Origin: Psococerastis gibbosa
Lineage: Eukaryota; Arthropoda; Insecta; Psocodea; Psocidae
Assembly: GCA_963971405.1 (NCBI GenBank)
Contig: OZ020489.1
Coordinates: forward strand, 12,710,001-12,774,000
Direction: 5' to 3'
DNA length: 64,000 nucleotides
This document shows positions 48,188 through 64,000 of the stretch, one piece after another. Each line of letters starts with the position of its first letter. Position 1 is the stretch's first letter. The notes below the pieces were generated by a model that worked only from the letters and a program-made list of their open reading frames with translations, was not told the origin of the DNA and searched no databases. A program made the translations under genes and the position numbers.

Positions 48188-48312
48188 AACCACTTGGGAA
48201 ACACAGTGAAGTCACATGATTAGTTCGGAGGTGACCAGGAAAAGTCCTACCATGTTTCCCTACCGGCACTGTGCACACGACCAAGTTATCTGCATCTTTG
48301 AACCTGCTCTGG
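48188..48312 (-). mobile_element. Truncated SINE-like element, family of 52156-52395
   Basis: This stretch is the reverse complement of about 52190-52313, with few differences. It begins five bases after the satellite ends and stops at GAACCTGCTCTGG, where similarity to the other copy ends. It lacks the 5' head and the 3' tail of the complete copy, and no target-site duplication was seen. It forms the immediate border of the satellite array. Confidence 0.8.
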
Positions 48313-48473
48313 TAAATGGTAAATACAGTACATACAAATATATGCTACGAAATACCCTAATATGTCCTTCGGATATGGGGGGGGGGGGGTGTAGTTGCAT
48401 TAGTATACATTTCAAGTACAACCAGAGGCAACTCGAGTTACTCCACTTTGCATTTGTAAACTACCTACCCGCG

Positions 48474-48742
48474 AGGTGGCCATTCCACCGGCAAATTTAC
48501 TTGAAAAATTGACTTTGTCATTAACGTTTGTTTTGTTTTAAGGAGATATATGTAGATACTTAACTTATCTATTTTAAATTAAGTTATAATATGGTAGAGT
48601 CTTATTAATGATGTCTGCTACCATGTCATAACTTAATTTATAATAGATAAGTTAATTATCTACATAATAGTCTCCTTAAACAAAACAAACGTCAATGACA
48701 AAGTCAATTTTTCAAGTAAATTCGCCGGTGGAATGGCCACCT
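48474..48742. mobile_element. Foldback (palindromic) MITE, AGG(C/T)GGC family
   Basis: The ends AGGTGGCCATTCCACC and GGTGGAATGGCCACCT are inverted, and the arms continue nearly symmetrically for over 100 bases (AAATTTACTTGAAAAATTGA... pairs with its complement at the right). The centre contains TTAATGATGTCTGCTACCATG. No open reading frame or clear target duplication was found. The end sequence and the centre are shared with the elements at 54073 and 62663; the arms are not. Confidence 0.85.
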
Positions 48743-49436
48743 TATCTAGCCGAGAAAAACATCTCGGAATCTCTGATTACTCAGGGATAATCACTCAACC
48801 TACTCCCAGCTCTCCTCATCTACTCTAGCCGACGGATTCTGACGAGGATTTCACAACAGGAAAACGCTGGAAGGATGAGTTAGAAACTGACTTTCGCGAG
48901 TTGGGAGTCCGTAGATGGTGGAGCGCTGTGATGACTTTATGTATTAGGTTTTTCATGTCAACTGGCGCCCCCCTCCCCCACCCGAAGCATGGCGCCCTGA
49001 CCAAATGCCTAGTTCGCCCATTTATAGGGCAGGGCTTGTACCTGAGCAAATATTCTGCTCCAACAGCCTTTGAAACTTGTGGTCGATTTTTTGCAGCTGC
49101 TGAGGGTTGAGCTCTACATTGCACGACTGCAATTTGAGTCCCTTCTGATGCTTTGTATTGCCGTCTTTTACTTCTGATGTCAGCACTTGGGCGTCATTTC
49201 TGCGTCTATTTTGGCTCAAGCCGCAGCCCATTGCTGATTTCATTTGTCTGCAAAAATCCATGTTCTGTTCTGTATCTAACATATGTATGCTCAAGCTGAC
49301 ACTGACTGATATTGAATTTGTGGATTAATTGACCTGCTCAGATTGGTATGACAGCTGCCTTTTAATAAAAAATCCAACAATCCCCGTTCTTAAAAAATTA
49401 ATTGAGTAAAACAATTAATTAATAAGAGATTCGGAA
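48743..49436. other. Unassigned stretch, possible LINE C-terminal remnant
   Basis: No gene is recognised. On the plus strand, 48829-48945 reads through a short segment (KRWKDELETDFRELGVRRWW) that resembles the C-terminal arginine/tryptophan-rich tail of some non-LTR retrotransposon polyproteins. It is preceded by an in-frame stop, and what follows does not resemble such a tail. Overlapping minus-strand reading frames also exist, but nothing identifies them. Assignment to a LINE is a weak inference. Confidence 0.2.
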
Positions 49437-49622
49437 TCATAAATACAACAAATAAATAACATAAATAATTAGATTACTCGTGACTTCGTGGTATTTATAA
49501 ATATAAATATAATATAAATATAATATATTATATATGTATATATTAAATATAATATATATAAATATAATATAAATATAAATAAATAAATAAACAATATAAT
49601 AATTTACGGCATTACAACAGGT
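49437..49622. repeat. AT-rich low-complexity tract (AATAT/AAAT repeats)
   Basis: The stretch consists of imperfect AATATA, TATAAATA and AAATA units. The open frame across it on the minus strand encodes only tyrosine/isoleucine-rich low-complexity sequence and is not a gene. The 250 bases after it hold nothing recognisable until the TA run. Confidence 0.85.
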
Positions 49623-49876
49623 CAACAGCATATTGCAATTTATTAGTTTTAGGGGGACACCGGAGTGACCAGATTAACCCTTGCTGGGTTTGAATAATAA
49701 AATGTTGAACCGGTCTCGTTGCCATTATTAATAAGTTACTAACAGTTGTCGTTGTACTGGTAAAAACAACTAAGTACCCTGGTTAGTCATCATACCCGGT
49801 ACCTAACCTACTATATATATGGTCACAAAACCAACAGTTTTGGTTGCTAAAAAAAATTGTATTTAGGTATATGGCT

Positions 49877-49898
49877 TATATATATATATATATATATT
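49877..49898. repeat. (TA)n microsatellite
   Basis: An uninterrupted run of alternating T and A, about 22 bp, in otherwise unique AT-rich DNA. Confidence 0.9.
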
Positions 49899-50012
49899 TA
49901 TATTATAAAGTAATGGAAGGCTATATTATGGGTATTCAAATTCATGATACTTTTTGGGTGGAACGTATCAGGTGTTTTAAACTGTAGAGTTATAGGCTAC
50001 TACAGTTTAAGC

Positions 50013-50400
50013 CTGAGTGTTCAAAATGTTTTGTAAACAAGAAATTATCGTACTTTTTGGACGAAATTAATTAATTGCTCGTTCCACAGCCACAAAGATA
50101 TAAAAGGGAACAGATGAAAAAATCTTAAAAAATACGAGTTTTCTGTGAAAGCTGTCTATTTCCTCTACAGATTTACAACTGTTCTACAAAATGGGTTTAA
50201 GGTTTAAGGCTCTTTGTCCCATTTTTCTACGGTAATAATATTTCAGTTCAGAAAATATAAACTTCCTACAATAACTTGTATTTTGTATACGTTTTTTATC
50301 TGTTCACTTTGTTATCTTTGTATTTGTGGAAGGAGCAATAAATTAGTTTCATCAGAAAATCAGCAAAATTTCTTGTTTACAAAACATTTTGAACACTCAG
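50013..50400. repeat. 34-bp perfect inverted repeat flanking a 320-bp spacer
   Basis: Positions 50013-50046 and 50367-50400 are exact reverse complements over 34 bases (starting CTGAGTGTTCAAAATG). The spacer holds no recognisable gene. This may be the inner part of a decayed foldback element, but no matching outer ends or target duplication could be defined. The DNA from 50401 to 50971 shows nothing else recognisable. Confidence 0.85.
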
Positions 50401-50971
50401 CTTTAAGTGCGAACTCCCCTAAACGGCTGTGTTGCGACGTTGCAATTTTCAGTTAGCCAAAAAACGCTACAGTAGGCTATATTCTACTTTCTACAAACAC
50501 AACCTTAATCTAATAAACTCTACCTATTTTACCTCAATTATCCAGCATTACAAGTTTACGCCAACATTCATAACACACGAACTCCAACAAATAGTTGCCA
50601 ATTTGAGTCATACCGTATTGCCACATACAACAGCACCCTTCGAACACTAATGAATGTGGTATACCACGCGACAGGAAAATAGAGACTAAACCAGTTATGT
50701 CCAAAAAGAGCTTTTGGTCCAGTCGCCCCGCAATTAGATCACGTGTCAATCTGCCATTGAAAGCATCACAGGTGGTTTAGGTGGAGAGTACTTCGGGATT
50801 AGGGAGAAAGAAGCTAAGTCCATAAGGGGTGTTGACTTCCGTATTTTGTTGCTTGGGTTGAGTGAACACCCCTATCACTGTGGTATGAATGAATCATATG
50901 TTTACTCCCATTCTATTACAATACCATGATAAATTTTTTGTGATAAATAAACTGTTGTTCCTGACGGGGGG

Positions 50972-51108
50972 CAGGGGCGAGGGGTAGCTGCCCCCCCAAA
51001 TTTAGTAAATATATCTATTGTAAGTTAATTTATTAAGAGTTTGTTCTATTTTTTTACCCACAACTACCCCCCCCCCCCCAAAGTCAAAGTGGGCTGGATC
51101 CGTTCCTG
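50972..51108. mobile_element. Probable non-autonomous hAT-type MITE with G/C-rich ends
   Basis: The left end CAGGGGCGAGGGG and the inverted right end (CAGGAACGGATCCAGCCC on the minus strand, then a run of G) resemble the CAGGGGCGGATCC-type termini common among short hAT-like elements. The interior is AT-rich with a C run at the right. The ends match imperfectly, and an unambiguous 8-bp duplication was not found. Confidence 0.4.
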
Positions 51109-51607
51109 AGTCTGTAATGAAAAACATGAACATGTAAAAATAAGCCGACTATTGCAGCTGTGTTCAGGTACAGGTTACAGGTTCGTTTATCGTTAAAAAA
51201 ATAAAATACAAACACAGAATAATATCAAATGCAAATGCAAGTACTGGATATAGTTGTTAAGCAGACAAATAGTCGTTGCTAAAGGTCGCTTACAGTAAAT
51301 TATGCAAACCGTTTTCCGTCCGATGGATACAAATGTACAATAAACAAGCAGCAATATTGTTTAATTTTCACAATCTCCTGGAGAATTATCGAAGGGAGCG
51401 TGTCCAAAGGGCATTAGGCTCCCCCAAAATACTTTGGAACCTCTCGACACCACGGACTACCAGCAATCCCCCCGGCTACCATTATAACACCCTTCCCGAA
51501 ATTATCAGCACTTTCTCTTTAACAAGCATTGTTCTCGAGTTCTTGGGTATCCCTGTCATCTCCAATTTTGAGTATAAGTGGTATACAGGTATATAAAGCT
51601 TTTGGTT
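51109..51607. other. Unassigned stretch
   Basis: No gene is recognised. A 106-codon frame at 51276-51596 starts at a TTG rather than an ATG and shows no recognisable domain or repeat. Its significance is doubtful. Confidence 0.5.
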
Positions 51608-51622
51608 AGGCGGCTATTCCAT
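51608..51622 (+). repeat. Single end of the aggcggctattcca foldback family
   Basis: AGGCGGCTATTCCA, the outer end of the foldback family, occurs here, but no inverted partner was seen in the following 300 bases. It is either a broken copy or a solo end. Confidence 0.5.
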
Positions 51623-51879
51623 CTGTCAATAATCCGTCATTTATGCTTGACCATTTTTGAAATGGAATTTTAATGTAACAGTAGATTTATTTTATACTCA
51701 TTAAAAAAATCTCTACATAAAAATCTCGTATTTAGTAGGGGAATTCCACAGCTAAAAACACCATCATTTACATATTTGTTTTTTAATATTTAATCCACCT
51801 GACGTCACTGGAGGTGAGGTAAATTCTAGATAGGTTAGACCAACACATTACCACACAGCAATAATGGCAGGGCACGCAA

Positions 51880-52787
51880 TGCATTTGACCGTGAATTTTC
51901 TATCATTTAAAAAAAAAAATTTTTTTTTGCACAATCCCAAATAGTTTTTTGGGAAAGCAACCTGTCCGGTTTCGTTACTCAATTTAACACCTAAAACATG
52001 CCTGAAGGTAGAAATCATGAATAGAAAGGTTTCGCAGAAAAATTATTTTTTAGTCATTTTTCTTTAAAATTTAGTTATTTTTATTTCTTTACCCCCAGAA
52101 GCAAACTATCAAGGGGCAAGCGGCCCCCGCATATTGTCAACATTAATAACGACTAGCCGGCCGCCATACCAAGTTGAATCCAGCGGACCAGAGCAGGTTC
52201 AAAGCTGCAGATAAATTGGTCGTGTGCACAGTGCCGGTAGGGAAACATGGTAGGACTTGTCCTGGTCACCTCCGAACTAATCGTGTGACTTCACTGTGTT
52301 TCCCAAGTGGTTCGGAATCCACTATAATCAGGAGGTCCACTGGAGTCCTATGGGCCCACACCGTGGCCTGGGACTGTGTCAAACCATACTACTACTAATA
52401 ACGACTACAATATATGTGAATTTAAAAGAAATCGTTGGAGCCGTTTTGGAAATAATAATTTTTTTATAAGTTTTTTTGTAGTTTTTTTGAGAATAAACCC
52501 CCCCCCCCCCAAATTGTGTAAGCCCCAAATAAAAAAAAATATTCCGAGGCATGATTTTTGTGAACTTACATGCCGAATTTAATCAAAATCGACCGAGTAG
52601 TTTGCCCGGAAATTGACGCACAGACAGAGGGACAGACAGACAGAGCGACGGATAGACAGACATTTCGTAAAAACCACTTTTTGGGTTCCTGGGACCTCAA
52701 AACGTGTAAATCCGTTGAAATCTCGGAATTGAAAATTTGGACCATCACAAAGCTTTCCTTATACTACGTATAAATTGGAAAGCAATA
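51880..52787 (+). mobile_element. Dispersed repeat copy A (GACA-rich 3' part), split by a SINE
   Basis: This copy aligns by eye with 58975-59790. Shared marks in order are CCGGTTT, AACACCTAAAACAT, AGAAGCAAACTATCAAGGGGC, ATCGTTGGAGCCGTTTT, a GACAGACAGACA-rich stretch, CATTTCGTAAAAA, TCCGTTGAAATCTCGG and a common end TTGGAAAGCAATA. It is interrupted at 52156-52395 by a SINE. Phrases such as AATCAAAATCGACCGAGTAGTTTG followed by CAGACAGA runs resemble 3' regions of invertebrate non-LTR retrotransposons. No reverse transcriptase frame remains, so the class is an inference. Confidence 0.75.
52156..52395 (+). mobile_element. SINE-like element with 12-bp target-site duplication
   Basis: TAATAACGACTA occurs directly before (52144-52155) and directly after (52396-52407) a 240-bp insert. 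Removing the insert restores the dispersed repeat that continues on both sides, as in the copy near 59380-59400. The insert ends in a short (ACT)n tail, as many SINEs do. It contains GGTTCAAAGC and GGTTCGGAATCC, which resemble a polymerase III B box, but no convincing A box at the right distance. A second, truncated copy lies inverted at 48188-48312. Confidence 0.85.
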
Positions 52788-53037
52788 AGATTCTTTTGAT
52801 CCAACTGAAGTTTTATAAGGAGGCATTGAAGTGTTATCTAACTTGCTTAGTAAAGTACACCACCTTTATTGAAGGTAGTAAAACTGAAGAACCTTGGAGA
52901 TCGGTCAGCTTGGCCCGGCCATGTATAGTATCACGAGCAACCATAGTAGTTTGCTTTTTGATTTTCTTTTTCGCCCCATGCTATAGGCACCCAAGGGCAG
53001 TGAAAAATCAGGGAGAGAGAGAGAGTGCGACAGTGGC
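52788..53037. other. Unassigned stretch
   Basis: No gene or known element is recognised. A short GAGAGAGAGA run lies just before 53030. Confidence 0.5.
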
Positions 53038-53386
53038 GTGTCCGTAGAAATGATGAGCTCTAGCGATATACCCACAACCTACGATAGTAGCCGAAATCAA
53101 GAGATACGCCTCATCAGGGAGCTAGGGTACGTGGAACGAATGACAGACCTCAGACCATATACCCCATGGTCCTTACACAAGAGCAGCCTTACACAAGGTG
53201 TCCAAAGGAAGCAGGCGAGAGGGAAGACCGTGGATGCGATGGCTTGATGTCGTCGAGGTGGATCTGGTGGCCCTTAGCGTCGATGTCTGGCGAAGGAGAG
53301 CGCAGGACCGCACAGGCTGGCGCGAAGTGGTAGGGCAGGCCAAGGCCTTCACGGTTTTGTAGGAGTATAAGTAAGTAAGTAAGTAT
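53038..53386 (+). pseudogene. LINE (non-LTR retrotransposon) 3' end, C-terminal fragment
   Basis: The end of a non-LTR retrotransposon polyprotein. The reading frame from 53038 gives RELGYVERMTDLRPY and then GVQRKQARG; after a frameshift near 53215-53222, the second frame gives GRPWMRWLDVVEVD and VWRRRAQDRTGWREVVGQAK and stops with TAG at 53360-53362. The GHVERM-like segment, the GRPrxRW segment and the closing W.RRAQDR.GWR...QAK are typical of the C-terminal tail downstream of LINE reverse transcriptases. An (AAGT)n tail follows (53365-53386), as in LINEs ending in simple repeats. The reverse transcriptase and endonuclease are absent, so this is a 5'-truncated, frame-broken dead copy. Confidence 0.8.
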
Positions 53387-53764
53387 AGGCACCACAGTTT
53401 AATGTGTAAAGTTAGTCTGTACGCTGAACGTTGTACTAATTCCAGTTTATTTTTCTTTTCTTTACCTATTACGTCACTTCACATTGCTCTCGCACTTATT
53501 CGAGTACTGTACTGTACGTAACCAGAGGGCCGAATTCTTTTGATTTTACACTAGATAGGAAAGAGCTTTCCAAGCGTGCAACATTTTACTATACATATAC
53601 TATAGGATCGCAGCCCTCCCCGCAATAATATCCTGGTTACGGACCTGCCTATTTTAGTATGTGTCACCGTATATATGAATACAGCTAGGCCTTTGAGCCG
53701 TATGAGCAGTATGTTTCCGAAAGTCCGGAAATGCTTCCGTGTTGACAATAAACCGGATATGGTT
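53387..53764. other. Unassigned stretch
   Basis: No gene or element is recognised. The minus-strand open frame across 53551-53841 shows no known domain and overlaps the possible dehydrogenase remnant that follows. Confidence 0.5.
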
Positions 53765-53896
53765 CTTCCAGGTTTGAATTCAAAACCTACTATCTCACTT
53801 ATCAATCCCATGCTCTTGGTCTCATGCCCAATTGACTTCATAGCATCAAACGCCTCCCAGGTACGTTGGTGTCTCTCACTGACTACATACCTACAG
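53765..53896 (+). pseudogene. Possible remnant of iron-containing alcohol dehydrogenase (ADHFE1-like)
   Basis: In the frame of an 89-codon ORF (53675-53944), residues about 31-74 read GLNSKPTISLINPMLLVSCP, then IASNASQVRW and LTTYL. From family knowledge, iron-dependent alcohol dehydrogenases and hydroxyacid-oxoacid transhydrogenase have, after the nucleotide-binding part, an L.P....DP......P....A..G.D.L.HA.E....T pattern. The P-T, the L-I-(D/N)-P, the second proline, the A and the TT fall at comparable places. The catalytic GxDxxxH segment is not preserved (SQVRWC instead). The upstream glycine-rich part is not visible. If the match is right, this is a decayed fragment or pseudogene; it could also be chance. 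The call rests on eye alignment only. Confidence 0.3.
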
Positions 53897-54072
53897 GTAT
53901 GCGATTGTTGTGGTGTGGGTGAATGGCTATTAATAAGAGGGTGAGAGTGTATGCAGCAACCTGTAGGCTGTACAGGTATAGAATGCGTGGGCCTCGGGGC
54001 CTATACGACAAACTCATCGACAAGCTAATTAATTCCCTAATATTGTAGGTTGCGAATACACATGTCACGAAT
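53897..54072. other. Unassigned stretch
   Basis: Nothing recognisable between the possible dehydrogenase remnant and the foldback element. Confidence 0.5.
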
Positions 54073-54287
54073 AGGCGGCTATTCCACCGACGTCGTTTTT
54101 CATTGTGCATGTGTCATGACGTCAGATGTCAGACCTCATTAACAAGTCTCTGCCATATTTTAAGGAGACTATAATGTAGATACTTAACTTATCTATTATA
54201 AATTAAATTATAGTATGGTAGAGACTTATTAATGATGTCTGCTTACACGTCATGCACATGCACAATGAAAAACGACGTCGGTGGGAT
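54073..54287. mobile_element. Foldback MITE, aggcggctattccac family, decayed right end
   Basis: The left end AGGCGGCTATTCCACCGACG pairs with CGTCGGTGGGATG at the right. The arms continue with CGTTTTTCATTGTGCATGTG and its complement. The last bases of the right end differ (GTGGGATGTTTAAG for GTGGAATAGCCGCCT). The inner part (AAGGAGACTATAATGTAGAT, then TACTTAACTTATCTATT) is shared with the 48474 element. The right end touches the RING-coding segment. Confidence 0.8.
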
Positions 54288-54362
54288 GTTTAAGAAGGCT
54301 GGCAACGTTGGATGATATTTGCTCGGTTTGCCTAAGTCCCATGCAGAAGGCTAAAGTTACCC

Positions 54363-54370
54363 CATGTAAT
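54363..54370 (+). repeat. hAT target-site duplication, left copy
   Basis: CATGTAAT, immediately before the CAGTGCCGGG end. An identical octamer follows the other end at 58199-58206. Eight bases is the standard duplication length for hAT transposons. Confidence 0.97.
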
Positions 54371-54385
54371 CAGTGCCGGGTTTGG
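54371..54385 (+). repeat. hAT left terminal inverted repeat
   Basis: CAGTGCCGGGTTTGG. It fits the (T/C)A(A/G)NG start common in hAT ends and is 15/15 identical to the inverted right end. Confidence 0.95.
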
Positions 54386-54853
54386 CTATGGGGCACTGTG
54401 GGCCCGGGCCCCAGGGCCCCCACAAAAATGGGGCCCCCACAAAACGAAAAAATACAAATAAAAAATTGAAAAAATTAAAAAAAATCAAAACAGATAACTT
54501 TTTAAATTTTCGCGGGAAATTCGAACGCATCGTGGCATTAATGACTCATTTTTGATAAAAATTTAACAAAAAATGAAGTATGTCCACTCCTGCTCTGAAA
54601 CCACGATTGTTTTGCTTCATTAAATACAAATTGAAAATTTGAAATCAAATTTCTAAATTGAAACTACTTTTATCAGCACTTTCTGGTTGGTATATTGTTA
54701 AGGTAAGTAGCATAAGTTAATTCTTATATTAGAGGCGGAAGTACCTAATAGTTGTTCTTTATAAGATAAGGTCCTTATTTTTCGTATTCTGCGCCCATTT
54801 ACCACAATTCACAGAACGCATCAAAACTTTGTAAGCCTATTAATTTTAATACG

Positions 54854-55045
54854 AAATGTGCCCAGCCACGTGGTCGCCACAAAATCGAGCACGTTATAAA
54901 TATAAAATTCATTGGTCTAAAATGTTATATGTCATAAAATGTTATATTATAAGACGCATGATTCGGAATTTTGAGATGTTTTATACAAAAGGGGATAAAA
55001 AATAAAATGTATTCGATTTTGTGGTGACCACGTGGCTGCACATTT
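54854..55045. repeat. Inverted repeat with paired CACGTG boxes in the hAT leader
   Basis: Positions 54854-54888 and 55013-55045 are reverse complements apart from a 2-base gap and one mismatch (AAATGTGC..AGCCACGTGG...). The 124-bp centre is AT-rich. Each arm has the palindrome CCACGTGG, a canonical E box. It is either a small foldback element nested in the transposon or a regulatory or hairpin structure belonging to it. Confidence 0.8.
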
Positions 55046-55156
55046 CATCTTAAGTAGGGCAATAGGAACAAGTGGACTAGATAATTAGGCTCTGGCTAGT
55101 GAGTTCTGAAAAAACTAATTTATTACAATTTTTATTTTTGATTCCGTAGTGAAATA

Positions 55157-57906
55157 ATGGATCGTCACAAGGGAAAACGCGAATATGCAAGCGGCAGTGA
55201 AAAGCGGAAAATCGCAGCAGATAAAGAAAACAAAATTCAAGATGTTTTATCTAAAACGCGCCGTATAACGGATTTTGTAACAAAAATAGAGACGGGTCCA
55301 TCTACTCCTAGTTCTACTTCTAATTTTGTTGAAATGATGAGTGGTGATTCTGATTTTCCTGCATCTTCTCAAGTTATTGCTAGCCCTACCCAAGAGGTAA
55401 GAGTTTGACTTTAATTACTTAATTAAGGTGACCGCAATCAAAAATTACCGACCCCACTCACCCCAGTAATTCTTATGGAATTAAAAATGGGGGACTCCTG
55501 TTAATTTACTGTATGAATTAAACCTACCTAAACTTGAGTCGGCCATGCCGAAAGGATTGTTTACAAAATTAATTACAACTGTAATTGTTTTACTTGTAGG
55601 CAGTAATTGATAACAATGACGAATCCGAAAATACTGCTGATGATGGATTTTGCAAAGAAAATGACGTGGGATTGTGGCCAGCAGTTCTTAGTCAACAACA
55701 CATCGACTATTGGATCAAGAAAGGAAATTTGGAAACTCAGCATTGTAATGAAGATATTTTGAAAGAAAAAAGCTTGGGACAAGTAGATGCAGTGAAAAGA
55801 AGAAAATGCCATGCAAGTTTATTCCTTCGTCAAACTCAGGCAGGCAAGTCTATAAGCCGCTCTTGGTTATGTTTTTCACCTAGTACGGGGAAGCTATACT
55901 GCTTTTATTGTAAATTGCTCTGCAAATCAGCAAATCAGTTTTCAACTGAAGGGTTTGCTGACTGGAAGCATGCGTCTGAGCGTTTGAAAAGACATGAAAC
56001 TACCGTAACGCATTTGCAAATAGTTTGCCAATTTAAGCATCTCTCAAACGAGGCAATGCGTATTGATCGTGAGTTGGCCACACAAGTGAAGGAGAGCATT
56101 GCTTATTGGCGAAACGTTCTAAACAGATTGATTTCCGTCATAATATTTCTTTCTGGACGAGGACTTGCCTTTCGAGGGGACAACGAAATTTTGGGATCAA
56201 CCAAAAATGGCAATTATTTGGGAGTCCTTGAGCTAATTGCACAATATGATCCGTTTTTAGTAGGCCACTTAGAGAAGCATGGAAATCGTGGCAGTGGTAG
56301 TGGCGGCGTTAACTACCTATCTGCCCACATTTGCGAAGAATTAATTGCGCTGATGTCCACCAAAGTTAGCGATGAAATAATTAAACGCTTAAAAGCCTGC
56401 AAATATTATTCGGTTTCGGTAGATTCAACAACTGACGAAGGCCATATAGATCAAATGACTGTGATTGTCAGGTATCTAGAAGAAAGCACACCAAAGGAAA
56501 GATTTCTTAGTTTTATGCCAAACCAAGGCCATAAAGCTAAAGAATTATTTGATGGCCTCAACAAAGTTTTAAAAAAGTTCGGCCTGGATTTGAAAGATAT
56601 TCGTGGGCAGTCGTATGACAATGCTTCCGCTATGAGTGGAGAATATAGTGGTCTACGCACTTTGGTGCTAAATGAGAATCCTTTGGCTTTATGGGTTCCA
56701 TGTTTCAATCATTCCCTCAACTTAGTGGGCACAAAAGCGATGGACTCCTGCTCCCAATCGAAATTATTTTTTAGCTTTCTTGAGCAAATTTATGTATTTT
56801 TTACAAGTTCCACAGCTCGGTTCAACGTCCTTTCAAATGTTCTAAAAAGTGCTGCGAAGAAGTATGGCCACAACATACCAGTGCCCAAAAGAATCAGTTT
56901 AACCCGGTGGTCCTCAAGAGCGGAAGCTACTAATAGCCTAGTTTTGGGCTATAACGAAATACGAGAAGTCCTTAAAGATCTCTCCGAAGAAGATGTCCAA
57001 GCAAGTGGACTCTATTTGCAAATTACCACGTTGGAGATAGCAATTTACGCTGTTCTTTGGAACGATATACTGGCAAGGGTGAATGCAGTAAACATCAATC
57101 TCCAGAATCCAAGAATCGACATTAATACTTCGATCAGTGTGATGGAGTCCCTTAAGATCTTCATTGGGGAATTTAGGGATTCTTTCCAAGAATATGAGAA
57201 AAAGGGTGTTGAATTGTGTGGGCACAATTCTTATAAATCGGAAACTTTGCGGAAGCGGATCCGAAATGTGAGGCTAAATCCTTTGGATTATGGGAAAACT
57301 GAGGAAGCTGAATTCAGTCATAGCGAGAAATTCCGAATCGAAAGTTTCATTCCCATAATTGACCAGTTTATGCAATCATTGGATCGGAGAATTTCAGCAT
57401 ATGAAGACATAAATAGGAAATTTGGATTTTTACAATATTTAGAAAAAATAAGCCCTGATGATTTGAAAACTAGGGCAGAGAACCTGGTGAGTTGTTACAC
57501 AGGTGACTTGGACGGTAACTTGTACTTCGAGCTAGTACAGTTTCGTGAGTTTGTGAAATTATTTGTGATAGATGATGCACAAAAAAACAATATAATCGAA
57601 GAAAAACGTATCAGTTTTGAACGGTTCATGTACAATTTGATTTTAGAAAGAGGAGTAGCTGATAGCTTTCCCAATGTAGAAGTACTTTTGAAGATGTACT
57701 TAGTTATAATGAGTGGCAACATAAGCAGCGAGCGATCTTTTTCCGTACTAAAACACATAAAAAATCCTCGTCGCACCAGTTCTTCTGAAGCTCGGCTTAG
57801 CCATCTTTCAATGCTGAATATAAATCACGACATAGTGGCAGCGTTAAATTATGACGATATAATTGACAGTTTTGCTGTAATAAAGAGTCGAAGAGTGCAT
57901 CTTTAA
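55157..57906 (+). CDS. hAT transposase, TTF/ZMYM1-like zinc finger type (two exons, 848 aa)
   Basis: Transposase that would cut and reinsert this element in the nucleus. Exon 1 is 55157-55396 (ATG, 80 codons, charged); exon 2 is 55600-57906 (768 codons). The intron starts GTAAGA and ends TTGTAG, phase 0. Residues about 153-219 form a TTF-type zinc finger (CFYC at 181-184, H212, H218). A DUF4371-like RNase-H-fold core follows. It has the aspartate of VDSTTDE (about D355), the aspartate of SYDNAS (about D420) and CFNHSLNL (about 448-455). The C-terminal hAT dimerisation region has SSERSFS (E791), NPRRTS and RLSHLSMLNI. By comparison with Hermes-type hAT enzymes, D355, D420 and E791 are the probable catalytic triad. 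No stop or frameshift was seen. The ATG is preferred because the exon-2 frame is already open upstream of its first GTG and the splice sites join in frame. AATAAA overlaps the stop codon. Confidence 0.92.
55397..55599 (+). other. Intron of the hAT transposase gene
   Basis: The 203-bp interval begins GTAAGAG after CAAGAG and ends TTTACTTGTAG before GCAGTAATT. Stops occur in the exon-1 frame right after the donor, and removing the interval joins the two frames in phase 0. The splicing is inferred, not observed. Confidence 0.8.
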
Positions 57907-57911
57907 ATAAA
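57906..57911 (+). promoter_or_regulatory. Polyadenylation signal AATAAA of the transposase gene
   Basis: AATAAA begins with the last base of the TAA stop codon, so the 3' untranslated region would be very short. It is the first canonical signal after the coding region. Confidence 0.55.
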
Positions 57912-58183
57912 TTAAAATTTTGTGTTTATAATTAGGTACCTATTAATTTATTCCTTTTAAAAATACACCGCAGTGTCTACAGCTTTAGTTGAGTAGCCCT
58001 TAGGCTTGTATTGTACTATTGACTTGACTTTATATTACTAAGAATCGCTTTTCTTTTTTATAATGATTTTGCAACCTGTGTCACCATTTTATAATTTATT
58101 GTGGGATATTCGTCTAAGGGGATTAGAAATTTCTCCCCGAGAAAGGGCCCCCACATAATTCGGGCCCACGGGCCCCCACAAGC

Positions 58184-58206
58184 CCAAACCCGGCACTGCA
58201 TGTAAT
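58184..58206 (+). repeat. hAT right terminal inverted repeat and right target-site copy
   Basis: CCAAACCCGGCACTG (58184-58198) is followed by CATGTAAT (58199-58206), identical to the octamer at 54363-54370. Confidence 0.95.
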
Positions 58207-58349
58207 CATCTATTCCATAGAGAGTGTCTATGTATTATGTATTAATATATTAATATAAATATATTACAATGTATTAAGGCTAAAAGTGAGTGTTCTGTTT
58301 GTAAATATAAGCTTTTATAAATAAATAAATATTGACTTTTTGTACTATT

Positions 58350-58535
58350 ACTAAGCCAACCTAGCGGAGTTAGGGCTATAAAGCCCTCTCTTACATTCAA
58401 CTAGGAAAGTCCGGGACCGCCTGCTTTACGTGCCCTCCGAAGCATGGCCAGAAAATTTTGCAAGTGTGGGACTCGAACCAACAACCTTTTGGGTGAAAGT
58501 TGGAGTCTTTACCACTACTCTACAAGGTCTGATTT
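58350..58535 (-). mobile_element. tRNA-derived SINE, same family as 62962-63215
   Basis: On the minus strand the head has an A box TAGAGTAGTGG (58522-58512) and a B box GGTTCGAGTCC (58479-58469). A body follows with CCATGCTTCGGAGGGCACG, then GTAAAGC.GGCGGTCCCGG (58447-58411). The same body block occurs in the plus-strand copy downstream. The flanks of the polymerase III-like head cannot form an acceptor stem, so it is not a tRNA gene. The 3' end and target duplication are unclear; the limits are approximate. Confidence 0.8.
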
Positions 58536-58974
58536 GATGAATTATATGGCTAACTTTAAAACAAAAAGTTATATAGGCCTAAAGAAGAAATAGGTTATAA
58601 ATATAAAAAATGTTTATTTAGCCAAAAATTCACTTGATAGAAACTCGAAGTTTGGCATTATTTTCAACTTATTTTTTCATGAAAGCAATTTCGCATGGCT
58701 CCACTGGAAGAGGCCCATGGTTCCTTGGAGTGGGAACCCGTCAGCAGTTTTAGATCCGTTCGTCGTACTGAGACCGTTATCTAGCGGTTGATATATAAAA
58801 ACAATTATTTCTCCAAACCACCGCTAGAGGCCATGGGCATGACTAATTTGAAGCACACAGGCGTCAGCTATATGGCAATCCAGACTCCAGAGGCGGTCAC
58901 GTGACTTAATTTGACACAAGCGCAGTAGCGCGGTGCTGATGTACATTGCAGGCCCTGAGCACTGAGCGGCAGGA
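58536..58974. other. Unassigned stretch
   Basis: No gene is recognised. A short inverted pair (CTAGCGGTTG near 58782 and CACCGCTAG near 58820) is present. The right part may belong to the 5' region of dispersed repeat copy B. Confidence 0.4.
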
Positions 58975-59790
58975 GCGCGAAGTTTCCATAATTTCAAAAA
59001 AAGAAAGCAGTTTTTTGTACAAAACCAAACCTTTCATGCGGAATGAAACCTGTTCGGTTTTGACACTCTGTCTAACACCTAAAACATATCTGCAGTCTGA
59101 TCGAGGCTTTTATAATACCGGGGTTAAATAAATACCCTAGGATTATAACTGTAAACAAACAAATTTTGAATAGCACTTTCCGTTATAAAATTATTTTGTT
59201 TACCAGTGGATTAAATAAATACCGGTATTATAAACGCCCCGATCAGGCTGCTGAAGGTTGAAAGGTTGCGCAGAAAAATATTTTTTTAGTAATTTTTCAT
59301 GAATATTGAGTAATTTTTTTTACCCTCAGAAGCAAACTATCAAGGGGCAAGCGACCCACTGTGTTTTGTTAACATTACTAATAGCTACAATATAATATGT
59401 GAATTTAAAATTAATCGTTGGAGCCGTTTTTGACAAATATTTTTTAAGACGTTTTTTAATGGAGTATTTTGTGAATAAGCCCTCCAGTTGAGTTAGCCCA
59501 AAATAAATGTCCCGAGGTATGATTTTTTTGAACCTACATGAAACAAACAGAGCGACAGACACAGTGGCCCAGGAACAGACAGAGCGGAAGAGCGAAAGAG
59601 TGATAGACAGAGGGACAGACAGACAGACATTTCGTAAAAAACACTTTTTTGGTTCCTGGCACCTCAAAACGTGTAAATCCGTTGAAATCTCGGAATCAAA
59701 CATTTCGACCATCACAAAGCAAATCTCGGAACCGAAAATGTTGACCATTACAAAGCTTTCCTTATACTACATAGAAATTGGAAAGCAATA
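58975..59790 (+). mobile_element. Dispersed repeat copy B, split by a small TIR element
   Basis: This copy shares the ordered marks listed for copy A (51880-52787), from CCTGTTCGGTTTT through AGAAGCAAACTATCAAGGGGC to the common end TTGGAAAGCAATA. It carries a short internal duplication near its 3' end (ATCTCGGAA...ACAAAGC at about 59687-59719 and 59722-59756) and a 138-bp insertion at 59103-59240. No coding capacity was seen. Confidence 0.75.
59103..59240. mobile_element. Small TIR element (MITE) inside dispersed repeat B
   Basis: The left end GAGGCTTTTATAATACCGG and the inverted right end GGGGCGTTTATAATACCGG match over most of 19 bases. GATC lies directly outside both ends (59099-59102, 59241-59244), a possible 4-bp target duplication. 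The sequence TTAAATAAATACC is also present near both ends in direct orientation. Copy A of the host repeat lacks this insertion at the equivalent place. Confidence 0.65.
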
Positions 59791-59930
59791 GTAATCCATG
59801 TGGGCGAATTTTGGGCCTTTCAACCCACTCTTACTATTAACCCAACAACTAATCAACATTCTAGCACTGCCCCTAGGTTGATAGGCCTAACCAGGAAAAT
59901 ATAAAACACCGCACCGTGCCGCGTCCAAAA

Positions 59931-61800
59931 TAGGGCTCTATATTAGACAGGTATTGTCATCCGCCATGTTGTATCCAATATACGTCTTGTGTATAAGCAT
60001 AGCCTGCCAATCGAAATAAGCAGACTGGCATTCCTATGCTTATACATAGGATGCAGTATTTCAGGGCTTTGTGATTTTCTTCATGAAATCACAGGATTGA
60101 AGTTACAAAATATTTGCGTCCCACTTTCGGATTTTGGCCACTTGGTAGCGCTTGGGTGTTTCCCGCACAAATTTAAAAATTGAAATGTAGTAGTCAATAT
60201 CAATTTAATGAGTCATTTCATATTAATAAATCTATAATGACCCAAATTTAATGAAACCAACTAGTTTATTGTATCATTCGCACACCTAGGTACATCTACA
60301 GTACAATGGTCAATGAATATTTAAAAAATAAAAATGCTCGTGTATCCTACGCAGTATGTATTAATGTATGGAAGTATCACATACAATACTTCACGTTACG
60401 GCAAGCATTCATTAGGGCCTTTTCGTACAGTTCACTGGGGGTTTGGCATTTTAAACCAAAACCCTGTATGGGGAAAGTGGCAAAAAAAGTCTTTACGTCG
60501 TGTTAGCATACTGTCACAGTAGACCATGTATTGGACATTTTCACAACCCCTATTTATTCAGACAGGTAGTTCCTCACTAACGCCATACGGTGACACCCAC
60601 GATGTTCCCTTCCTTTTGACTCTGTAAGCCATGGGTGACAAGTGAAAACTCTAGGTGAGTTCCATGGAAAAGGCTTTTAAAATACAGCATAATGCAATAA
60701 CATTAATGTAATAACAAATATACAGTAATTTACAGTGAAGAGGAAGGAACACAACTAATATTTTTGACTTTTTTTCCTTCTGGTAGAAATTGTCTTGCAT
60801 TAACTTAAAGTTTCCACTCGGATTTCCTTGCTTCAACATTTTCTGTGGCGGGACGAGACGCCTCCTCTGCTCCTGTTCCTCGAAATCTGTTGCCCTAAAA
60901 ATGTCAATAATATTAGCCTACCGATACATGCCAATTAAAATAAGACAACATATTTTGTTTTAGTTAATGTATGCTGCAGTGGGCCCATAGAGGGAAGACA
61001 CTGTCACAAATTATTACTTCGCAAGACCTATGCATGCAAAGGCTTAAAAATGCTTCTCGTAGGTTGTACAGTAACTTGTTGCACTCGGTGTTTTTGGGAG
61101 TGTGCTAAGTGACTTAATTTGGCTACAAGACGGCTATTGTGGGTTTAATATAAATTTCTCACTTACCTTTTAGATGCATCATTGTAGGCCTACTGTACTT
61201 TGCATAATGTGTAGCATAGTTTGCAGTTTTCAATCCAACAACCGAACTTATTTTATTAGTAAAGTAGGTATTGCTGTAGAGATTGAAATTTGAATCAATA
61301 AATAATGTTTATCATTTTTGTTTATCAAAAACCCACTCATTTCTGCTGCGTTGTTATTGTTTTGAAAATGAATGTTGACTTCAAAACAGGCAGCCAATAG
61401 TAGGCCAAGTTTTATAGAACGTTCGAATACACTCACAATTGTTTCTTGATAAATTAATTTGATTGGTTAAAACTGGGACGCAAATATTTTGTGACTCGGC
61501 TCATGTGATTTTCCTATTTGGAATCACAGACGGCCCTATACCGACTAGCATTCTATAGTAAATATTATTCTATGTGTATAAGTCAAGCATTGGGTATTTA
61601 CCTATTTATTTTTTGAAATTAATCGTTGTTTATTTATTTGTATTTAAAAAACGCGCTACCACGTAGGGAAGTGTATAATAAAAAAATACTAAAACGTGTA
61701 TTAGTTTTTTTCAATTTTTTACTTTTCTTACAATACTTACCATATAGGAAATATGGGATACAACATGGCTGATGCCAATACCCGGGTATATAGTGCCTTA
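59931..61800. mobile_element. Non-autonomous hAT-like element with long imperfect inverted ends (1870 bp)
   Basis: GTCCAAAA lies directly before (59923-59930) and after (61801-61808). The ends start TAGGGCTCTATAT and, inverted, TAAGGCACTATAT. Further inverted blocks pair inward: GGTATTG.CATC.GCCATG plus TTGTATCC (59950-59976 with 61756-61782), hairpins with TGTGATT...AATCACA (60070-60093 with 61505-61529) and ACAAAATATTTGCGTCCCA (about 60103-60121 with 61470-61488). An 8-bp duplication and (T/C)A(A/G)NG ends fit hAT. The 1.3-kb centre has only short, unconvincing frames (for example 60306-60506) and no transposase. An alternative is two separate repeat copies in opposite orientation, but the flanking duplication argues against it. 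Confidence 0.7.
59990..60046. repeat. Hairpin in the left inverted end
   Basis: TGTATAAGCATAG (59990-60002) and CTATGCTTATACA (60034-60046) are exact complements with a 31-bp loop. This lies inside the long left end of the element at 59931-61800. Confidence 0.8.
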
Positions 61801-61810
61801 GTCCAAAATA

Positions 61811-62662
61811 AACCTTATTTATGATGAAAACAAAATGCATTAATTTTAAAAACTCCAAAATTTTTAAAAATTACAACATAAGGTACATTTCTTAAACGAG
61901 AAGGCCTAGCACTCGCTTTGAAGGTAGCCTATAATTTACTGACACTCTTTTTGTACCTAATAGTATGTTATATGTTTTCCCATAAAGTGAATAATTACCC
62001 CGATAAAAATTAAAAATCGAATGTACCCCGTTTTCGGGGACCCTTACACCCATAAAAAATTAGCGTACAATCCGTATATGGGATTTTAGGGTGGTTCTGA
62101 CTAGTCATTCAGCAAGTACTAAGGATCCAAAATGCAAAAGTTGAGCTTGTCCCTAATGTTTCCAAATCTCAAACCCTAAAGCTTACTGATTTATAGGGCT
62201 TGCCTATCAGGTAGCAGTCGACTGCAATAGCGAACCAACTGCAAGTTGCAACAGGTCAAGAAGCAACTCATTCGCTAGACAGGCAACATCGGCAAGGGGT
62301 GGTCAATAACTCCCAACATTTTAAACGGCCACTTAGTCCAGGGATTCGGAACCCCAGAATATACTGTACATACACAGTAGTATACACTATGTAGTCTTCT
62401 TCACTTCCTGTGCCATTGGAATTTAACATGTAACAAATTTTTCTAGCTAAGTACATAAACACCAGATAAATCTGCATTATTATTTTAATATACTGTATGA
62501 ATGTATGATACCTTGCACTGGGAATGTTTGCAGGATGATCCATTCTCAACTTAAAAACATTTTGTGGATTCGCTCTTTTTGCAGTTATGTTTTTTTTTGC
62601 CTATACAGACTTACGGTTAAATACACTGCATCCTCAGAATATATGTAAATGTTACCGTATTG
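61811..62662. other. Unassigned stretch
   Basis: No gene, RNA or known element is recognised. The frame on the minus strand at 62268-62549 shows no known domain. Confidence 0.5.
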
Positions 62663-62804
62663 AGGCGGCTATTCCACTGACCTCGTTTTGCAGAGTGAGC
62701 GTGACATTGACGTGGTAGCAGACATTCTTAATAAGTCTTTAATGTCTGCTACCATGTCAATGTCACGCTCACGCTGCAAAACGAGGTCGGTGGAATAGCC
62801 GCCT
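62663..62804. mobile_element. Foldback MITE with nearly perfect 64-bp arms
   Basis: The ends AGGCGGCTATTCCAC and GTGGAATAGCCGCCT are exact complements. The arms continue (GACCTCGTTTTGCAGAG..., GTGAGCGTGACATTGACGTG, GTAGCAGACATT) with only a few mismatches to a short loop around CTTAATAAGTCTTT. This is the youngest-looking member of the family. Its outer ends and central TTAATAAGTCT/ATGTCTGCTACCATG are shared with the other members, but its arm sequence is different. The target duplication is unclear. Confidence 0.9.
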
Positions 62805-62961
62805 GAATAAATGACACCAGTGACGTTGAATACCTATTCAATGGTCTTATCTGAAACGTCTACATTGTAAGTCACCATCTTGGATTATGACCTTATGGTC
62901 CAAATTTCTAAATGACAACATCAAAATTAGCGTTCAGTAAGTCCAAATTATTTTGTAAGAA

Positions 62962-63215
62962 GTAGTCAGAATGGCGTAGGGGTAACGACTCGGACTATCA
63001 TCCAGAAGGTGACTGGTTCGAGTCCCACCCGAATGCCAAAATTTTCTAGTGGTACAATTATTTATCTTCTGACTACCATGCTTCGGAGGGCATGTAAAGC
63101 CGGCGGTCCCGGCAGTCTTCCCTGACTGTCGATAGGTTAAACAGGAGGCTGTTGATGCAACCTGAAAACTCCTGTACCACGGGTAGTACCACCCCGACAC
63201 GAATTTACTTTTTAC
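62962..63215 (+). mobile_element. tRNA-derived SINE with 12-bp target-site duplication
   Basis: ATTTTGTAAGAA occurs directly before (62950-62961) and directly after (63216-63227) a 254-bp insert. The head has an A box TGGCGTAGGGG (62972-62982) and a B box GGTTCGAGTCC (63015-63025), the internal polymerase III promoter of a tRNA-derived SINE. The body has CCATGCTTCGGAGGGCATG and GTAAAGCCGGCGGTCCCGG (63076-63112), shared with the inverted copy at 58350-58535. A LINE partner would have supplied the retroposition machinery; it is not identifiable here. Confidence 0.9.
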
Positions 63216-63227
63216 ATTTTGTAAGAA

Positions 63228-63724
63228 AATATTTCACAAAATGTTACCCATTTAAAAATGGGAGAATGTTGGTATAATAGCTGCAGGTTATCGGGTGTAA
63301 AAGAAATAGTTGGTATAGCATAGGTGAGTTGTTGTCAGTACAGCGCGACTAGATTAGTAGCCTATAATCAACAGGGGTCGGCCAGTGGTATTAGCATTTA
63401 TTATATATATATATATTACTATATTATTAGAAATTAGCCTAAGTCTTATCAAACTTCTGCAGACAATTTTTTGAATGTGGCCCATAATATCGCCTAATTT
63501 GGCGACATAAATTCCCCTAAAAACAGTCAAAAAATGATTTTTTTTTTCGTTTGTGAAACGTTCTTTTATAACCCCCTTAGGTAATCCACATAGGCTTAAA
63601 CTTGCTGATTTGAAAGGAACATCATAATAATAATTATTATTTTGTCTTCAAATCCAAAGCCTCGGCTTGTAAAGCACCATGTTCTGTGTGTGTTGTTGCT
63701 CTGCATGTAGTACCTACTGCAAGA
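63228..63724. other. Unassigned stretch with a (TA)n run
   Basis: No gene is recognised. A TATATATATATATATATA run lies near 63400-63416. Confidence 0.5.
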
Positions 63725-63843
63725 CCGTGCCCAGATTTTGATTTCGGAAAGTCCATTATATCAAGTGTTCAAACTCAAATAAAACAATTTATTTCGGGAG
63801 GGGGGGGGGGTCCAGATCCCTTGGATCACACCCCTGGGCACGG
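63725..63843. mobile_element. Possible short TIR element with G run
   Basis: CCGTGCCCAG (63725-63734) and CTGGGCACGG (63834-63843) are exact complements. An interior G run at about 63796-63810 is followed by TCCAGATCC. Such ends with G runs resemble short DNA elements of the hAT-like kind, but no target duplication was found. The final 157 bases of the window show nothing recognisable. Confidence 0.4.
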
Positions 63844-64000
63844 CCATGACTCTAAAACATACCTGACTTAAAAATCATTGATTGAATCCATCAAAGGGGA
63901 TATGACCTAGTGGGATTTCTTTAAATTAATTAAGTACCGTACTACAATATATCATATAGAATGACATCATGTATCATGCATTGTATTGTTTCGTCATTTC

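Follow-up and report, generated by a model that had tools for sequence, protein, structure and literature searches.

A RING-finger signature that can be read only across the insertion point of a hAT transposon raises the question whether the transposon destroyed a functional exon or came to lie in a sequence that was already dead. We addressed this for a 64-kb stretch of DNA from Psococerastis gibbosa (the window; C14:12710001-12774000) by searching the 409-Mb assembly of 68 contigs to which it belongs. A sequence-only reading of the locus had allowed both outcomes. Insertion into an existing pseudogene is upheld by the present analysis, and the loss of a functional exon is not, because a hAT-free copy elsewhere on the same contig carries the same stop, the same insert and the same 5′ truncation.

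The transposon and the RING segment it interrupts

As already proposed from the sequence, the RING segment is split by a hAT element that lies between two copies of the 8-bp duplicated target site (TSD) CATGTAAT and is bounded by perfect terminal inverted repeats (TIRs; Table 1). Its 5′ edge coincides with that of 39 further scored genome matches, which begin at query base 63-71, equivalent to position 54371 or just before. A TSD of 8 bp is that of the hAT superfamily, and the TIRs and total length fall within the ranges of 10-25 bp and 2.5-5 kb given for hATs in PMC3942097. The predicted transposase scored clearly with DUF4371 of Pfam (71.8 bits, cut-off 32.1), and Dimer_Tnp_hAT remained under its cut-off (17.5 against 21.4 bits). 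No solved structure matched the transposase sequence of the window at E 0.1, no transposase relative was confirmed in viral contigs, and an Rfam search returned no family at gathering score. The element looks autonomous, and its transposase is presumably active. A fusion of the RING segment with the transposase was considered and rejected, as the frame entering the element from the left stops at 54469, far before the transposase.

Table 1. Features at the interrupted RING segment (window positions unless a contig is named).
Feature	Position	Strand	Remarks
~93-kb direct duplication, window part	48188..64000	.	C14:12758188-~12850727 vs C14:10997130-~11089527
MITE-like inverted-repeat element, right end cut short	54073..54287	.	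RING fragment starts at its edge
RING fragment, 5′ half (CSVC...TPCN)	54288..54370	+	Valid frame only from ~54302, directly after a 14-bp deletion (read by eye)
Left TSD copy, 8 bp	54363..54370	.	CATGTAAT
hAT element, 3,828 bp	54371..58198	+	15-bp perfect TIRs
hAT TIRs, 15 bp, perfect	54371-54385 / 58184-58198		CAGTGCCGGGTTTGG
Predicted transposase exon 1	55157..55396	+	ATG to GT donor, read from sequence
Predicted transposase exon 2	55600..57906	+	Open frame of 768 aa; 849 aa with exon 1
Right TSD copy, 8 bp	58199..58206	.	CATGTAAT; single in the hAT-free C14 segment
RING fragment, 3′ half (HLFHREC ... ECSVCKYKLL, stop)	58207..58320	+	Joined reading
AT-rich insert, 33 bp	~58233..58265	+	In-frame TAA at 58243-58245; insert absent from the C1 gene

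Joining the flanks over one TSD copy gives a single frame, as had been claimed, which reads LATLDDICSVCLSPMQKAKVTPCN up to the insertion point, continues directly with HLFHRECL and comprises on the far side HLFHRECLCIMY, a stop, YININILQCIKAKSECSVCKYKLL and a further stop. The frame had been thought to end at 58245. The TAA is indeed there, within the 33-bp insert, but the same frame resumes behind it and continues to LQCIKAKSECSVCKYKLL and a stop. ECSVC lies in this frame at 58288-58302, and with it the final CxxC (58291-58302), so that the supposed lack of the last W...CPxC half was an error. All eight RING ligands are thus present in one frame, but the TAA and 11 extra codons stand between ligands six and seven, and the fragment has no open frame that carries all eight in order. 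Without the insert, the spacing of the last ligands is that of a related gene on contig C1. The MITE-like element that forms the 5′ boundary of the fragment has a related copy at 62658-62809.

The joined segment, queried with an X at the stop, exceeded the Pfam cut-offs (in brackets) of zf-RING_11 with 29.5 bits (27), zf-RING_UBOX with 27.2 (25.2) and zf-C3HC4 with 24.2 (21), and stayed under that of zf-RING_2 (24.6 against 27.3 bits); either half alone was below every Pfam RING cut-off. Its best matches among solved structures were AMFR and synoviolin. Searched in all six frames without joining, the 64-kb window contains no six-ligand RING pattern. Together with 87% identity to an open frame on C1, this shows that the joined signature is not due to chance, in agreement with the earlier judgement that chance was unlikely.

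Relatives on C1 and C3 and a hAT-free copy on C14

A search of the genome with the joined piece gave nine matches, all nine candidates being scored: a hAT-free copy at 11.0 Mb on C14 (98% identity across the joined query; the TAA is shared), the two halves in the window, the open frame on C1 (E 2.6e-19), a gene on C3 (46%) and four weak matches with E values from 0.025 to 2. The frame on C1 (C1:43501687-43502616) encodes 310 amino acids ending in LRQCIKAKNECPLCKYQLL and a stop, lacks the insert and contains a complete RING with eight ordered ligands in one open frame (zf-RING_2, 39.1 bits, cut-off 27.3). When this exon was used as query, 8 matches were obtained from 17 scored candidates. Residues 1-204 were covered by C1 alone, and the two places on C14 matched only residues 259-310 and 259-285. 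Beyond the stop, on the 3′ side, C1 and C14 remain similar for more than 5 kb, with individual blocks at ~78-93% identity. The C3 gene encodes a 605-aa TRC8 protein (TRC8_N, 609 bits) with 34% identity to the last 122 residues of the C1 exon. Both genes have CPLC where the C14 side has CSVC. Presumably the C1 gene is functional and copying proceeded from C1 to C14.

Over the 32 codons before the insert, all five differences between the C1 gene and the fragment are silent by our reading of the codons. Behind the insert, four changes alter an amino acid and one is silent, and one further difference lies at the insert edge. Decay of the first half of the fragment is therefore not visible, which counts against our reading, although the number of changes is small. 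So few changes do not bring back the idea of a functional fragment, as the piece has a stop and lacks an upstream exon. In addition, both C14 copies appear by eye to have lost 14 bp directly before LATLDD in comparison with C1.

The hAT-free copy is located on the same contig at a distance of 1.76 Mb, with 1.67 Mb between the two copies, and has a single CATGTAAT exactly at the insertion point. Both copies have the 5′ truncation at the MITE-like edge, the 33-bp insert and the TAA in common. In the aligned segment around the insertion, a single substitution and a 3-bp gap distinguish them, with one substitution in the RING part. As these defects are present in the copy without the element, the hAT entered a fragment that was already dead, and no functional exon was lost.

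Both copies belong to the ~93-kb direct duplication, with 99.0-99.8% substitution identity in 15 of 20 5-kb bins. Identity falls to 96.4 and 97.4% in the two bins right of the hAT; the last three bins (12840000-12850727), after which homology ends, have 97.4, 95.4 and 95.7%. The low-identity stretch right of the hAT (window 58500-64000 against C14:11003700-11006800, ~95-97%) is precisely where the C14 sequence resembles C1, and is flanked by ~99.7% identity on the left and mostly more than 99% on the right. As an explanation of this trough, gene conversion from C1 was rejected: among the 52 differences between the C14 copies in six aligned stretches, 25 arose on the window side, 25 on the other side and 2 were undecided, an even split indicating that neither copy was pulled towards C1.

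Four insertions are confined to the window copy, namely the hAT, ~59092-59251 (160 bp), ~59923-61802 (~1.88 kb) and a SINE at 62962-63215; conversely, ~2.5 kb of the other copy (11007215-11009700) is missing on the window side. The SINE, which the other C14 copy lacks, is tRNA-like and shows by eye a 12-bp target duplication, and a related piece lies in reverse orientation at ~58466-58518. To the left, the window consists of a satellite that repeats about every 167 bp, up to ~48187, and its remainder is rich in mobile elements. With one mismatch allowed, the genome contains 67,461 occurrences of a 31-mer from this satellite (reversed control, 0), which is found also at the very start of contig C2. 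Two 126-bp inverted repeats (48188-48313 and 52187-52312), 97% alike and 3.9 kb apart, lie next to the array, the first beginning exactly at the satellite edge.

Order of events and competing readings

In the order of events that we favour with considerable confidence, the hAT would have inserted by ordinary cut-and-paste, through an 8-bp staggered cut, into an already dead fragment of a RING gene. The last 52 codons of the C1 gene, together with 5 kb or more of the DNA that follows them, would have been copied to C14 as genomic DNA. This copy would then have lost its 5′ side at the MITE-like element and gained the 33-bp insert with its stop. Subsequently, the RING piece would have become part of the ~93-kb duplication, and finally the hAT would have entered one of the two C14 copies during a very recent burst.

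The main competitor leaves the fragment broken and concerns only its copies. If the two C14 copies were misassembled haplotypes of one locus, the hAT would be a heterozygous presence/absence variant of an already broken fragment. Identity of 99.0-99.8% in 15 of 20 bins is within the allelic range, and the left end of the duplication coincides exactly with the border of the satellite array, where assemblies commonly break. Nevertheless, we regard misassembly as unlikely: homology stops inside a 46.5-Mb contig at both sides of the compared stretch, identity drops to 95-97% in the last three bins before that point, the left flank of the 11.0-Mb copy has no satellite, and the compared stretches of 119 kb and 120 kb contain no run of N. 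The empty site 1.76 Mb away is thus more likely a paralogue than an allele.

Much further down in probability are two accounts of the fragment itself. That the insertion destroyed a functional exon here is suggested by the genuine RING and by the ligands kept in frame on both sides of the element, yet it is refuted for this haplotype by the defects of the hAT-free copy, and the search with the C1 exon found no other part of that exon on C14; it is therefore given hardly any credence. Equally improbable is a processed retrocopy. The fragment does include the 3′ end of the coding region with its stop, as an mRNA copy might, but similarity to C1 goes on in several blocks for more than 5 kb beyond the stop of the gene, which speaks against an mRNA origin; as the whole fragment falls inside one exon, a loss of introns could not show. 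The favoured order, with insertion into a dead fragment, can be read from the empty copy and the C1 gene.

The hAT family and comparison with known systems

All 40 scored copies of the element, the best 40 of 842 candidates, reached 5,770 bits over 3,199 bp, which is the per-base score of a perfect self-match and means that these copies are identical. Likewise, the 58 scored transposase matches (best 58 of 801 candidates) had 100% identity over 768 amino acids, open and without a stop. The 51-bp 5′ end of the element occurs 170 times in the genome within two mismatches (reversed-pattern control, 0), and the 100 places listed, in an order that is possibly sorted, all had 0 mismatches. Identical full-length copies number dozens and are spread over several contigs. 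These counts are lower bounds, since the genome search scores only the best candidates and may be biased to the most similar copies; the window's own element is missing among the listed 768-aa and 3,199-bp matches, which shows that more copies exist than those two sets contain. At eight loci including that of the window, four copies showed no difference over the first 1,930 bases and four were rearranged or internally deleted. TAAT precedes six of nine 5′ ends, in a sample biased by ranking loci according to matches running into the flank.

Judged from these copies, the family has undergone a very recent burst that is possibly continuing. At an assumed rate of 3e-9 changes per site and generation, 0 changes in 40 x 3,199 bases would date the burst to within ~8,000 generations, as far as the scored copies are concerned. 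There is about an even chance that the family is in the midst of a present-day invasion of its host, perhaps after horizontal transfer. The transfer is a guess, whereas the recency of the burst is not. It is the family that makes the finding useful, since it may represent an autonomous animal hAT that is mobile at present. As a locus, the site is ordinary; it illustrates that a gene has not necessarily been broken where a RING signature spans an insertion point.

The closest known elements are the hATs with a DUF4371 transposase, of which BuT2 of Drosophila, a member of the Tip group, is one described case (PMC3942097). The window element agrees with them in its 8-bp TSD, short TIRs, length of 2.5-5 kb, DUF4371, a transposase with an intron and the coexistence of full copies with deletion derivatives. 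It differs from them in that its hATC dimerisation domain is under the Pfam cut-off and in that the identity among its copies is unusually complete. With the Tip group in particular, the feature seen in common is DUF4371, and we assign the element to none of the groups Ac, Buster and Tip.

On the RING side, the systems to compare are the membrane-bound E3 ligases TRC8, AMFR and SYVN1, two of which (AMFR and synoviolin) gave the best structural matches; unlike these, the piece in the window is a truncated fragment with a stop. Its parent on C1 is similar to the C3 TRC8 protein at the RING end, but the 310-aa exon, the only exon of the C1 gene that was found, had no Pfam match to the TRC8_N domain of the TRC8 (RNF139) family, and the gene is thus called TRC8-like in its RING only. 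As a whole, the locus resembles unprocessed gene duplicates in which a paralogue preserves the empty site, being a genomic DNA copy with common disabling changes and an insertion in one copy. Nothing notable sets it apart from such fragments, and it represents an ordinary case of this kind.
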